64,000 bases of DNA from Desulforapulum autotrophicum (GTDB lineage Bacteria; Desulfobacterota; Desulfobacteria; Desulfobacterales; Desulfolunaceae), in assembly GCA_020723285.1 (NCBI GenBank), contig DYJE01000002.1, positions 124,001 to 188,000 of the forward strand, written 5' to 3'. Within the stretch, counting starts at the first letter, position 1, and each line of letters begins with the position of its first letter. The notes under the pieces are model-generated. The model was not told the DNA's origin. It saw only the letters and a list, made by a program, of their open reading frames with translations, and did not search any database. Shown here piece by piece: positions 47,185 through 53,122 of the stretch. The translations under genes and the position numbers were made by a program.

Positions 47185-49146
47185 ATGGAAAAAAATGACG
47201 AAAGACTTCTTCCCATGGTTTCTGATCTGACCACATGTGAATCAACTCAGCAGATGCTTGAAAAAGCCAGGAAGGATGGAATCACAACAGCATGGGACCG
47301 AGCCGTGGATATGAAACCCTGCCCCATCGGGGTTGAATCCGCTTGCTGCAAAATGTGTCATATGGGACCTTGCCGTCTTAACGCCAAACGACCCTACGAC
47401 AAGGTGGGTGTGTGCGGAGCCACCATTGACACCATCATGGCCCGGAATTTCGCACGAATGGTTGCGTCCGGGACAGCCGCACACAGCGATCACGGCCTTG
47501 CGATTCTTGAACTGTTCAGGGATGTGGCTGCCGGACAAATAAACGATTACACCATCAAAGACCCCATCAAACTTGAAGAACTGTGCAATTCACTTGGAAT
47601 ATCTACAGAAGGTCTGAACGTTCAGGGTATGGCTCAGGCCTTATACGATGAGCTGATCAAAACCTATACCCAGCTCAACGGTGAAATCCCCTTTGTAAGA
47701 CGAGCTCCTGAAAAAACACTGGAACTCTGGAGGAAACACGGTCTTGTACCCAGAAGCGCGCCCAAAGAAGTCATGGAAATGATGAGCCGCACCCATATGG
47801 GCTGCGATCAGCATTACGAAAACATCACGAAACAGATCAGCAGGACGGCCCTGGCTGACGGTTGGGGCGGGTCCATGATTGCCACAGAACTTTCGGATGT
47901 CATGTTCGGAACACCCTCCCCTGTTCTTGCCGATGTAGACATGGGCGTACTCAAGGAAAACATGGTGAACATCATTGTGCACGGACACGAGCCCAATCTT
48001 TTTGAATCCATGCTGGCCACGGTAAATGATCCGTTTTATGTCAACATCGCCAAGGAAAAAGGGGCCGCAGGCATAAACCTGGTTGGTATGTGCTGTTCCG
48101 GAGCTGAGATGATGTCCCGTCATGGCATTCCCCATGCCGGGAATTTCGGAAGCACGGAAGCGGTTCTGGTCACCGGTGCCGTGGATGCCATGGCCGTGGA
48201 TATTCAGTGCATCAAACAGGGACTTGCCGAGGTTGCGAAGTGTTACGACACCCATCTGATCACCACCAACCCGAGATGCATGATCGAAGGGGCTCTCCAC
48301 ATCGAATTTCATGAACACCATCCAAGGGCCTGCACAGATGAAATCGTCACAAAAGCCATTGCGCGTTTTGCAACCCGGACCAAGCCTGTGGTGATCCCAA
48401 AGAAATCAACCAAGGGCGTTCATGGCTTCACCTACGAGTATATCAACTACATGCTGGGTGGAAGCTTTCGCGGAGGTTTCGCGCCTCTCAACGACAACAT
48501 CATCAACGGACGGATACGCGGAGTGGCCGGTGTTGTGGGTTGTGTGAATCCCAGGGTCAAACAGGATTCGGTTCATGTCGCTCTTGTCAAAGAACTGATT
48601 AAAAACGATGTACTGGTCCTTCAGACAGGGTGCTCCCAGATCTCTCTTGCCAAAAACGGCATGCTGACGCCTGAAGCGGCCCATCTGGCAGGACCGGGTT
48701 TGCGGGAAGTCTGTGAAGCGGTGGGCATGCCTCCGATCCTGGGCCTTGGTTCCTGCGTTGACAACACACGCATCCTCATCGCTGCCACGGCTATGGTGAA
48801 ACAAGGAGGGCTTGGGAACACCATCGCCGATCTTCCCGCAGCCGGTGCCGCGCCCGAATGGATGAGTGAAAAAGCCATTGCCATCGGACAGTATTTCGTG
48901 ATGTCGGGTGTTTACACAGTGTTTGGGGTGAGTTTCCCCATCGTTAAAAACACGAAGTTTCACGATCTGCTTTTCAACGGCCTGGAAAAACAGGGATTCG
49001 GAAAGTGGGGTCACAGCACGGATCCCATAGAAATGGCGCATATGATGATCGATCATATCGACAAAAAACGCAAAGCGCTGAATATCGATAAGGCACGAGA
49101 AAGAACCCTGGTGGATATGGCTGACCGGAGACAGATTCAGGAGTAA
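47185..49146 (+). CDS. cooS: Anaerobic nickel carbon-monoxide dehydrogenase catalytic subunit
   Basis: 653 residues, normal for CooS. It interconverts CO and CO2 at a Ni-Fe-S C-cluster. The N-terminus carries the D-cluster Cys C46 and C54 and the B-cluster Cys C55, C58, C63 and C77. C-cluster ligands are visible as G-H-E-P-N, G-M-C-C-S-G, V-G-C-V-N-P, T-G-C-S-Q and L-G-S-C-V-D. AGGAG precedes the ATG. No cooF, cooC, hydrogenase or acetyl-CoA synthase gene is adjacent, so this is a stand-alone CODH; its electron partner must be encoded elsewhere. Confidence 0.96.
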   Translation: MEKNDERLLPMVSDLTTCESTQQMLEKARKDGITTAWDRAVDMKPCPIGVESACCKMCHMGPCRLNAKRPYDKVGVCGATIDTIMARNFARMVASGTAAHSDHGLAILELFRDVAAGQINDYTIKDPIKLEELCNSLGISTEGLNVQGMAQALYDELIKTYTQLNGEIPFVRRAPEKTLELWRKHGLVPRSAPKEVMEMMSRTHMGCDQHYENITKQISRTALADGWGGSMIATELSDVMFGTPSPVLADVDMGVLKENMVNIIVHGHEPNLFESMLATVNDPFYVNIAKEKGAAGINLVGMCCSGAEMMSRHGIPHAGNFGSTEAVLVTGAVDAMAVDIQCIKQGLAEVAKCYDTHLITTNPRCMIEGALHIEFHEHHPRACTDEIVTKAIARFATRTKPVVIPKKSTKGVHGFTYEYINYMLGGSFRGGFAPLNDNIINGRIRGVAGVVGCVNPRVKQDSVHVALVKELIKNDVLVLQTGCSQISLAKNGMLTPEAAHLAGPGLREVCEAVGMPPILGLGSCVDNTRILIAATAMVKQGGLGNTIADLPAAGAAPEWMSEKAIAIGQYFVMSGVYTVFGVSFPIVKNTKFHDLLFNGLEKQGFGKWGHSTDPIEMAHMMIDHIDKKRKALNIDKARERTLVDMADRRQIQE

Positions 49147-51088: not shown

Positions 51089-53122
51089 CTAGTCACGCTT
51101 GAATTGCAGCACATCCATGGGGCAGACACTGATACATATTCCGCAATGGATACAGCTTGAGTTTTTATTGGAAAAAGCCTCGCCATGACGCGCAAAGGCC
51201 ATGACATCCACACCGACCTGGCAGTATAATGAGCATTGAGTGCATTGAATGCATTGATCGTTTGAAACGATAGACAGCTTACCGTACCAGCGGCTCAGAA
51301 TCTCCATGTATTTGGCCAGGGGACACCAGTACCGGCACCAGATCTTTCCTCCGGCTATGGGATAAAGTGCCATGGGAATGACGGCGATCAGCCAGAAATC
51401 CACAATCACCGCATAAGCGCTGTGCCAGAATCCGGATTGTCCGATATGTCCTTTGTAAAACACTAAAATGACGAACGCACTTACAAACGCCCAGAAAAGG
51501 ATGATATCCCCCATGACTTCCCATCGCCTGCTTCGTTCACCCTTGGGCGAAAGGTGACGCCATCGGTCACCCAGGGTTTCTGCAAGCCCTCCGCATCCAC
51601 AGATCCAGGAACAGAAACGTTTGCCATGATACCTGACGGCGATGGGGATCACCACAAAAGTCACCATCGCACCCATGACCGCGATGAAGATTTTCAGATC
51701 TCCGGGACTGACACCCGACAAACCATAGAACGAATCGAATAACAGCGGAAAAGGATTGGACACGGCGTAAACACGCCACCATGTGTCACCCGGAAGATAA
51801 ATGGCAAACAGACATTCAATGATCAAAAATGAAAAAACCTGAAACACGATAAGGCTTGAAAATCTTAGAATCTGGTGCTTGTCAGTCCATCCCCTGCTCC
51901 ATCGTTTCATGGCTATTATTCCGAAATAAACCATAAGAGCAGTGTAAACCGCTGAATACCAAAACGATGGATTTTTGAAAACTCCGCTGAATTGAGACAA
52001 GCCTTCCCCGTAGTAATGAAACGGGTAATAGCCTTTCTTCCATGTGTAGATGATCAGGCAGAGAGAAAGGGTGAACAGCAGAAGTAAGTAACGTGAAACG
52101 GTCCATTCTTTTTCAAAGCGGATACCGATCGTTTTTAAAAATTCCCTGGGGGGTTCGGAGCCGATCATCTCAAACACATGGTGGTTTGGAATACTCGTAT
52201 GTTTTGCGTTGGCGCTATTGTGAAGCACGACCTGGTCCTGGCCTATTTCAACCAGCCGCGTCCCGGTCAACAAGGACAGCGTTCCTTCAGTTTGCTTTTT
52301 TACTAGCGCTTCAACATTTTTTTTCCTGGGAAAAACCAGATGGTCATCCACGGTGGCCAATGTCACCGTATTGTTGTCGCACAGGGCCAGAGCCGCTTCA
52401 GCCGCCACATCTCCACCGCCATAAACCAGGATATTTTCCCCTGAGTATGCGTTAGAATCTTGCAACGTGTGATGAATTTTTTCAGGGTATTCCGTTTCCC
52501 CTGGAACACCTGCCGTTCGGGGATGCCCTGATTTCCCGATGCACAACACAACCAATGTCGCCGTCACATCATTTTTGTCTGTGACCAGCCTGAATCCGTG
52601 ATCAAGGCTTTCTATACGGGTTACCCGTTCGTTATCACGGCATTCCACACCGGATTTTTCAAGGGCGTCATTAAAAACCTCCAATGTCTGTTCAATGCTG
52701 CTTTCACGAAAAGGTATGCTGCCTTTTAGAACAAGGTTTTCAGGCTCTGCGAGCATAAGTTTACCGCGGGTAAACGAACGGAGTGTCTGAAACTTCTTTC
52801 CGGCTTCGAGTATCACCACGCGCCTGTTCAGCTCTTTCAGCCTCACGCCTGTGGCCGCACCGGCGACACCGCAACCCACCACCGCCACATCGTAATCCAC
52901 GGCAGGGCCTGTCTCCATGGTTTTCAGTTTTTCATTCAAAGTTTCCGCAAGGTCAAAACCGTTGTTCAGACTCACTTTGATCAGGGATTTTCCCACCACG
53001 TCTCCGGCGAGAAAAACACCCCTGATATTCCGTGATTCTCCATTCTTATCAACGTCAGGCATGACAGGATAGGATGGAGACGGACGGTCTTCGATAAACC
53101 AGTTTTTATAAATGGGTTTCAT
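51089..53122 (-). CDS. Circularly permuted TrxR-like flavoprotein fused to NosR/NapH-like membrane polyferredoxin
   Basis: 677 residues. N-terminal flavoprotein part: G-V-F-L-A-G-D at 35-41 (the FAD motif normally at the C-terminal end of thioredoxin-reductase-like enzymes), then the FAD GxGxxG at 83-88, E-A-G-K, the NAD(P) site G-G-G-D-V-A at 235-240, and the closing F-E-M-I-G-S-E-P-P at 317-325. Membrane part: about five to six helices (344-360, 388-405, 418-442, 478-496, 540-556, 568-590) with NosR/NapH-type Cys motifs C504-x3-C508-x-C510 and C596-x3-C600-P. C-terminal 2[4Fe-4S] ferredoxin: C624/627/630/634 and C657/660/663/667. It probably moves electrons between NAD(P)H and the quinone pool or an envelope acceptor. 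It is coupled to an MFS gene downstream. Confidence 0.82.
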   Translation of the reverse strand: MKPIYKNWFIEDRPSPSYPVMPDVDKNGESRNIRGVFLAGDVVGKSLIKVSLNNGFDLAETLNEKLKTMETGPAVDYDVAVVGCGVAGAATGVRLKELNRRVVILEAGKKFQTLRSFTRGKLMLAEPENLVLKGSIPFRESSIEQTLEVFNDALEKSGVECRDNERVTRIESLDHGFRLVTDKNDVTATLVVLCIGKSGHPRTAGVPGETEYPEKIHHTLQDSNAYSGENILVYGGGDVAAEAALALCDNNTVTLATVDDHLVFPRKKNVEALVKKQTEGTLSLLTGTRLVEIGQDQVVLHNSANAKHTSIPNHHVFEMIGSEPPREFLKTIGIRFEKEWTVSRYLLLLFTLSLCLIIYTWKKGYYPFHYYGEGLSQFSGVFKNPSFWYSAVYTALMVYFGIIAMKRWSRGWTDKHQILRFSSLIVFQVFSFLIIECLFAIYLPGDTWWRVYAVSNPFPLLFDSFYGLSGVSPGDLKIFIAVMGAMVTFVVIPIAVRYHGKRFCSWICGCGGLAETLGDRWRHLSPKGERSRRWEVMGDIILFWAFVSAFVILVFYKGHIGQSGFWHSAYAVIVDFWLIAVIPMALYPIAGGKIWCRYWCPLAKYMEILSRWYGKLSIVSNDQCIQCTQCSLYCQVGVDVMAFARHGEAFSNKNSSCIHCGICISVCPMDVLQFKRD

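Follow-up and report, generated by a model that had tools for sequence, protein, structure and literature searches.

The Gene and Its Genomic Context

The DNA analysed here, called the window, is a stretch of 64,000 nucleotides from Desulforapulum autotrophicum (contig DYJE01000002.1, positions 124,001 to 188,000). At positions 51089..53122, on the minus strand, one open frame (taken from the ORF list and its translation) specifies a protein of 677 amino acids, in which a flavin domain of permuted order is fused to a membrane polyferredoxin. All features given below are encoded on this strand.

The chain begins with the segment assigned to the closing of the FAD domain, a strand and a long helix (residues 20-68; 52919..53065), as delimited by profile hits, the order in homologues and the pLDDT of a structural model; it contains the closing motif GVFLAGD (residues 35-41; 53000..53020), evident in the sequence and in an alignment of 57 rows. 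The FAD/NAD(P) core, similar to that of YpdA and thioredoxin reductase (TrxR), follows at residues 77-339 (52106..52894), where Pfam places Pyr_redox_3 (residues 81-336) and where both Foldseek and VIA lead to YpdA. Sequence and alignment locate two nucleotide-binding motifs in it: the FAD motif GxGxxG, here GCGVAG (residues 83-88; 52859..52876), and the NAD(P) dinucleotide motif GGGDVAAE (residues 235-242, with GGGDVA at 235-240; 52397..52420). Six membrane helices are predicted from the model and from hydropathy between residues 342 and 590 (51353..52099), with bounds at 342-363, 385-408, 415-442, 475-499, 536-555 and 565-590. A CX3CxC motif, CSWICGC (residues 504-510; 51593..51613), placed in the cytosol by the positive-inside reading, precedes the fifth helix; a CX3CP motif, CRYWCP (residues 596-601; 51320..51337; 57-row alignment), follows the sixth, and a 2[4Fe-4S] ferredoxin (residues 621-673; 51104..51262), delimited by Pfam Fer4_21 (residues 619-672) and by Cys conservation, ends the protein.

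The coding sequence is preceded by TGA ATA ATG, that is, by an in-frame stop two codons ahead of the ATG (the stop-to-stop frame is 678 amino acids), and the N-terminal piece is therefore not read-through from the upstream gene. The latter ends 29 bp away and contains DUF6055; its counterpart at locus L008 matches the NCBIfam model of the MXAN_6640-type metalloprotease. Between positions 47185 and 54816, the window carries in order a metalloprotease-like gene, the permuted-flavin gene, an MFS transporter, a small protein of no assigned function and a CO dehydrogenase. L008 keeps this order with one extra small ORF after the flavin gene, the last two genes being matched by eye.

A single gene of this kind was found in the source genome: two weaker hits cover residues 480-676 and 484-671 of the query only, i.e., the NapH/ferredoxin-like part. 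As a separate observation, genome G000 holds four Pyr_redox_2 matches (contigs C12, C33, C79 and C80) in frames of 446 to 1018 amino acids, each with one in-frame TGA, possibly specifying selenocysteine.

A Flavin Domain in Permuted Order

A preliminary description, made from the letters alone, had placed the closing motif of the flavoprotein before its FAD motif, and this is indeed the arrangement found: GVFLAGD and GCGVAG occur in that order in one frame. It had also described the region after FEMIGSEPP as running straight into membrane helices; this stretch is at residues 317-325, the flavin part ends at about residue 339, and the first predicted helix starts at 342. At the level of sequence, the permuted order of the flavin domain is confirmed as real. 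The circular permutation it had proposed is supported by a profile search, a doubled-template test with a canonical control, conservation across phyla and a confident structural model. Together, sequence and model support a TrxR-like fold whose last piece has moved to the front of the chain.

For the profile search, the N-terminal segment alone was used (54 sequences; 59 positions). In the PDB, it matches best the closing regions of glutathione reductases, dihydrolipoamide dehydrogenases, TrxR and GltD, one example being residues 298-343 of 461 (E 1e-5). Among the 60 matches listed of 136, the transporter protein 6h30 is the one unrelated entry; for the best five of the 136, the match was followed residue by residue.

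The doubled-template test compared a family profile of residues 1-345 with canonical relatives written once and twice. Against a single copy of the canonical relative L092, the profile splits and aligns in swapped order (77-339 to template positions 2-265, and 22-63 to 271-311), while doubled L092 is matched in one continuous run, 22-339 to 271-582 (E 6.4e-50). Two further canonical templates, the YpdA-like L094 and the TrxB of the source genome, likewise gave two pieces when written once and one run when doubled. All pieces of the fold are present once in the window protein, continuous over the template junction. Among 136 proteins tested, the window protein included, the junction of doubled L092 was crossed by 115 of the 115 with an N-terminal closing segment and by none of the 21 with a C-terminal one.

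Other genomes have the same permuted order, as the preliminary description had proposed to check: we found 115 permuted ORFs in several phyla. In a set of 140 core-holding ORFs, from which identical strings were removed, 115 are permuted and 23 canonical (22 distinct cores), a ratio that is no measure of prevalence because only the top-scoring loci of each scan were taken; the remaining two are left unassigned because contig ends cut them. The 115 permuted proteins have distinct cores, and the closing-segment profile gives the best hit in each of them, with at least 19.6 bits (median 64.4). This exceeds chance, as the top score among the 140 reversed sequences was 3.3 bits. By this profile, none of the 140 ORFs contains two closing copies, as a duplication intermediate would.

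The motif stands ahead of the core in 55 of 58 homologous ORFs, the exceptions being L022 and L044, cut by a contig end, and L057, which aligned further on only. G40 is kept in 54 of 57 rows (three gaps), and the next residue is D in 36, E in 17 and N in one (three gaps). Within the closing segment, four residues (three Gly, one Pro) are invariant in 54 aligned rows, which were selected for the motif.

The full chain was modelled by AlphaFold2 from 57 sequences with a mean pLDDT of 88 and a pTM of 0.85. Residues 21-70 score 92-98 and form a strand (36-38) and a long helix (48-68), which is the usual look of a TrxR closing element. YpdA comes first in both structural searches (7a7b: Foldseek E 8.4e-18; VIA Z 24.0, rmsd 3.4, 270 aligned). 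Among the VIA matches listed, none starts before residue 72, as is to be expected of order-dependent aligners, and many extend into the ferredoxin, up to residues 626-641. Mutual information over the 115 sequences ranks closing-core pairs 1, 5 and 6 of 48,233 (43-322 being first), a signal that clade structure can mimic. These pairs fall on the FAD and NAD subdomains in ratios of 8:7 (top 15), 18:12 (top 30) and 40:20 (top 60) against a background of 56%; with the bounds we had set, mutual information revealed no clear preference of the closing segment for the FAD subdomain.

Cofactor Motifs of the Flavin Core

Both motifs that the TrxB family needs, GxGxxG at 83-88 and GxGxxA/G at 235-240, are present. 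The YpdA model TIGR04018 aligns with residues 78-341 over its positions 1-266 of 316, at 114.8 bits, below the cut-off of 339.9. In YpdA, according to the accessible part of PMC6591457, the catalytic Cys14 lies in GGGPC14G. The corresponding position, residue 87, is Ala in 40, Ser in 14 and a gap in three of the 57 rows, and the redox-active CxxC of TrxB is absent from residues 1-345. Since both are missing, thiol-disulphide chemistry is unlikely, and we set aside a function as disulphide reductase. Position 258 is Arg in 32 of 57 rows and Val in the window protein, a replacement that, judged from TrxR, may point to NADH rather than NADPH as the substrate.

The Membrane Polyferredoxin Part

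The preliminary description counted six or more Cys motifs, which is too many: there are four, with 13 Cys (CX3CxC, CX3CP and two CxxCxxCxxxC). A membrane module of the NapH/NosR type has two CX3CP motifs; in the window protein, the second is CX3CP and the first is CX3CGC. The two C-terminal [4Fe-4S] motifs of such a module are present, as Fer4_21 and eight conserved Cys show. Every Cys of CX3CxC and CX3CP occurs in 55 of the 57 rows (two gaps), and the eight of the ferredoxin in all ungapped rows (54-55 of 57). TIGR02163 (NapH/MauN) matches residues 462-675 with 60.7 bits, below its cut-off of 213.05. The loop at 500-535 contains eight Lys and Arg residues; if the six helices are right, it is predicted to lie, like every Cys motif, on the side of the flavin domain, in the cytosol.

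The ferredoxin blocks score a pLDDT of 64-77 when the membrane part is modelled alone and 87-92 in the full chain, a rise that fits a flavin-ferredoxin contact in the model, though other causes are possible. Compared with solved structures, the membrane part gave no match to a known fold by Foldseek (best E 0.84) or VIA (best Z 3.5; 515 chains aligned), and we have no evidence of a new membrane fold. The membrane segments of NapH have been proposed, in the accessible part of PMC5928378, to draw electrons from the quinol pool.

Distribution, Domain Layouts and Phylogeny

With the window protein as the query, 51 loci were retrieved from genome contigs; by their record titles, they come from Planctomycetes with anammox bacteria, Acidobacteria, KSB1, Calditrichia, Latescibacterota, Dadabacteria, Omnitrophota, Chlamydiae and a few Proteobacteria. 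At E 1e-40, the protein is found in five of 297 genomes of its own phylum, source genome included. The core profile at E 1e-35, which pools canonical and permuted orders, hits 32 of those 297 genomes, 72 of 246 in the phylum to which the Phycisphaerae locus L013 belongs and 125 of 247 in the phylum of the Acidobacteria locus L028.

The permuted flavin module occurs in several contexts: before a NapH-like polyferredoxin, after either a 2[4Fe-4S] ferredoxin or a multihaem cytochrome c, and flanked by a ferredoxin on one side and a multi-helix domain on the other. A membrane polyferredoxin with CGCGGLAE or CSCGGLAE is found in 64 of the 115 permuted ORFs, another or a variant multi-helix C-terminus in 16, and an N-terminal ferredoxin in 31; two combine a ferredoxin with a multi-helix C-terminus with cytochrome-b-like histidines (by eye), and in two, cut by the locus end, a multihaem cytochrome c stands in front. 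The former pair (L158:529-3018 and L162:586-2898, both on the minus strand) run from N-terminal ferredoxin through permuted flavin domain to multi-helix C-terminal domain, and their His pattern resembles, by eye, the cytochrome b or ferric-reductase type; Pfam names none in L162. The latter, L103 and L105, carry at least nine and at least eight CxxCH motifs, respectively, followed in the same chain by a membrane segment and, after it, the permuted flavin domain; Pfam identifies cytochrome c3/c7 in L105. The long N-terminal extensions in the stop-to-stop frames of L005, L023, L030, L034 and L047 look like non-coding read-through and were rejected as domains.

In genome G299, the permuted form is present at least three times (L125, L131 and L134). 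At L016, L018 and L019, two permuted membrane-type genes lie close together, the second being 27-28% identical to the query. The canonical ORFs comprise 18 short and five long ones, two of the five representing one gene.

In a tree of the cores without the distant outgroup TrxB (117 rows), a single branch splits 98 permuted from 19 canonical sequences (SH-aLRT 92.7), which amounts to one change of order. The TrxB-rooted tree has a long branch, nests the canonical groups within a clade of weak support and gives two changes. The support of 92.7 being below the mark of 95, a single permutation event is favoured by the sequences but not proven.

Gene Neighbourhoods and Cultured Carriers

The operon scan covered 84 same-strand neighbours at 32 of the 45 placeable loci (of 51). 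The commonest Pfam family among the neighbours was DUF3179, with four members, which in our reading represent two split genes (L017 and L039). The sole recurrent neighbour is an uncharacterised family with no Pfam match, present at 12 of 55 loci (L054:4113-4844 and 11 others); by eye, it combines a signal peptide and a CxxC domain with two membrane helices and, at the C-terminus, a zinc ribbon, and its L054 copy reaches no Pfam cut-off. The neighbours name no electron acceptor. CO dehydrogenase was not taken as a partner because, among 18 loci with genes listed, only L008 has it (by eye). ArsS-type radical-SAM genes scoring over the cut-off lie near the membrane-type genes of L009 and L057, with MerT/CopZ-like genes also near L057, and L056 has blastp neighbour clusters in common with both loci.

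Two plasmid records in PLSDB contain permuted members, both annotated as "NAD(P)-binding domain-containing protein". That of Pseudoalteromonas sp. Bsw20308 (WP_007378779) is of the membrane type and lies amid glycosyltransferase and DUF2064 genes. That of Emticicia oligotrophica (WP_015031197) is of the ferredoxin-first type, with ccsA and a hypothetical gene before it and two cytochrome c3 family genes after it. Like the fusion to cytochromes in L103 and L105, this row of genes suggests that the permuted module exchanges electrons with carriers.

Proposed Electron Route and Alternatives

We propose, with a probability of roughly 0.6, that the window protein works as an NAD(P)H dehydrogenase anchored in the membrane, in which a permuted YpdA/TrxR-like flavin domain and a NapH-like membrane domain would pass electrons from NAD(P)H via FAD and [4Fe-4S] clusters to quinone. 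Residues 20-68 would supply, from the N-terminal side, the part that completes the FAD domain, and NAD(P)H would reduce the FAD in the cytosol. The flavin would hand single electrons to the two ferredoxin clusters, and these to one or more clusters that CX3CxC and CX3CP would bind at the surface of the membrane, from where the membrane part would exchange electrons with quinone. Because the closing strand and helix lead the chain, the other end of the domain directly enters the six-helix NapH-like part and the C-terminal ferredoxin. The preliminary description saw a possible advantage of the permutation in that both ends of the flavin domain could stay near each other. Such a single-chain route fits the anatomy read from sequence and model; the cofactors, the direction of the electrons, the quinone partner and the path are what we infer from it.

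An artefact, in which the N-terminal piece would be the surviving tail of a canonical flavoprotein once encoded upstream, and the core a degenerate one without a closing piece of its own, is highly improbable. Permutation by duplication and trimming does pass through such a state of tail plus trimmed core, and the upstream gene ends within 29 bp, but this neighbour is metalloprotease-like and not a flavoprotein, and the closing segment keeps its three Gly and one Pro in the 54 rows chosen for the motif. The idea of an upstream-gene remnant, entertained in the preliminary description, fails on the in-frame stop two codons before the ATG and on the order conserved in 115 proteins with distinct cores, none of which has two closing copies.

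The other two alternatives accept the permuted domain and differ in where the electrons go. CcoG, an iron-sulphur cupric reductase, has no known physiological donor according to the accessible part of PMC7558416, and the polyferredoxin might likewise reduce copper or another metal or metalloid, with NAD(P)H as the donor. We consider this unlikely, although it keeps a place among the candidates because of the ArsS genes near L009 and L057 and the MerT/CopZ-like genes near L057; the recurrent neighbour at 12 of 55 loci, with its CxxC domain and zinc ribbon, also speaks for it. Against it, few loci show the association, no ArsS scores over the cut-off in the window's genome, and the eight scanned neighbours in the window include no metal-resistance genes. 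The flow might also run in reverse, with the membrane domain oxidising quinol and the flavin domain reducing NAD(P)+ or another partner, which we hold to be rather less probable still. Flavin-ferredoxin enzymes can run in both directions, but unless it is coupled, electron transfer from quinol to NAD+ runs uphill, and the scanned neighbours include no pump-like subunit. NapH-type domains are proposed quinol oxidases (PMC5928378, accessible part), which favours reverse flow, but all Cys motifs of the window protein are predicted to be cytosolic.

If the route from NAD(P)H to quinone is true, it would be an undescribed entry of NAD(P)H electrons into the membrane in Planctomycetes, Acidobacteria and others. 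The rotated order itself is clear, is common to 115 proteins, and goes along with fusion to very different electron partners. The occurrence of the module across phyla with varied redox partners suggests an unrecognised link from NAD(P)H to the membrane. On balance, we lean towards a wider reading, in which a YpdA-like reductase was permuted in a single ancient event and became an NAD(P)H module that could be plugged into other proteins. Its new termini would then have been fused with no fewer than four different redox parts, namely 2[4Fe-4S] ferredoxin, multihaem cytochrome c, NapH-like polyferredoxin and a multi-helix domain whose histidines resemble those of cytochrome b. In Planctomycetes, Acidobacteria and other lineages, this would have given rise to an unrecognised class of membrane dehydrogenases linked to NAD(P)H.

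Comparison with Known Proteins

The flavoproteins with two dinucleotide-binding domains are a much-studied fold, and to our knowledge no natural circular permutation is known among its TrxR-like members. A literature search, with most subscription journals outside its coverage, returned no description of one among the matches listed. None of the TrxR-like type appears in the accessible parts of PMC6591457, PMC5928378, PMC7558416, PMC4686048, PMC1683948 and PMC4408115; LucY belongs to the MurB family. The fold and both joined modules are thus known, and judging from the sequences, what appears new is the permuted form and its membrane fusion.

The best match of the core, in sequence and in fold, is YpdA or bacillithiol disulphide reductase Bdr (7a7b, 7a76; TIGR04018), from which the window protein differs by its closing segment ahead of the core, its score below the cut-off, the lack of Cys14 and the membrane fusion. 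The canonical long relatives L092, L188, L190 and L192 have a similar core, and the closing segment of L092 is much like the permuted N-terminal one, but in all four it occupies the usual C-terminal place and no membrane part is seen; Pfam finds cNMP-binding and 4Fe-4S domains in L092, and the other three are alike by eye only. By Foldseek, the same two-dinucleotide-domain fold is shared with the TrxR-like ferredoxin:NADP reductases FNR2 of B. cereus (6gas) and IruO (5twb). Reductases of this type are unpermuted and soluble, with ferredoxin as a separate protein. The membrane part has the CX3CP motif and the two C-terminal [4Fe-4S] motifs in common with NapH, NosR and RdhC, but unlike these, the window protein has CX3CGC as its first motif and carries an NAD(P)H flavin domain in front.
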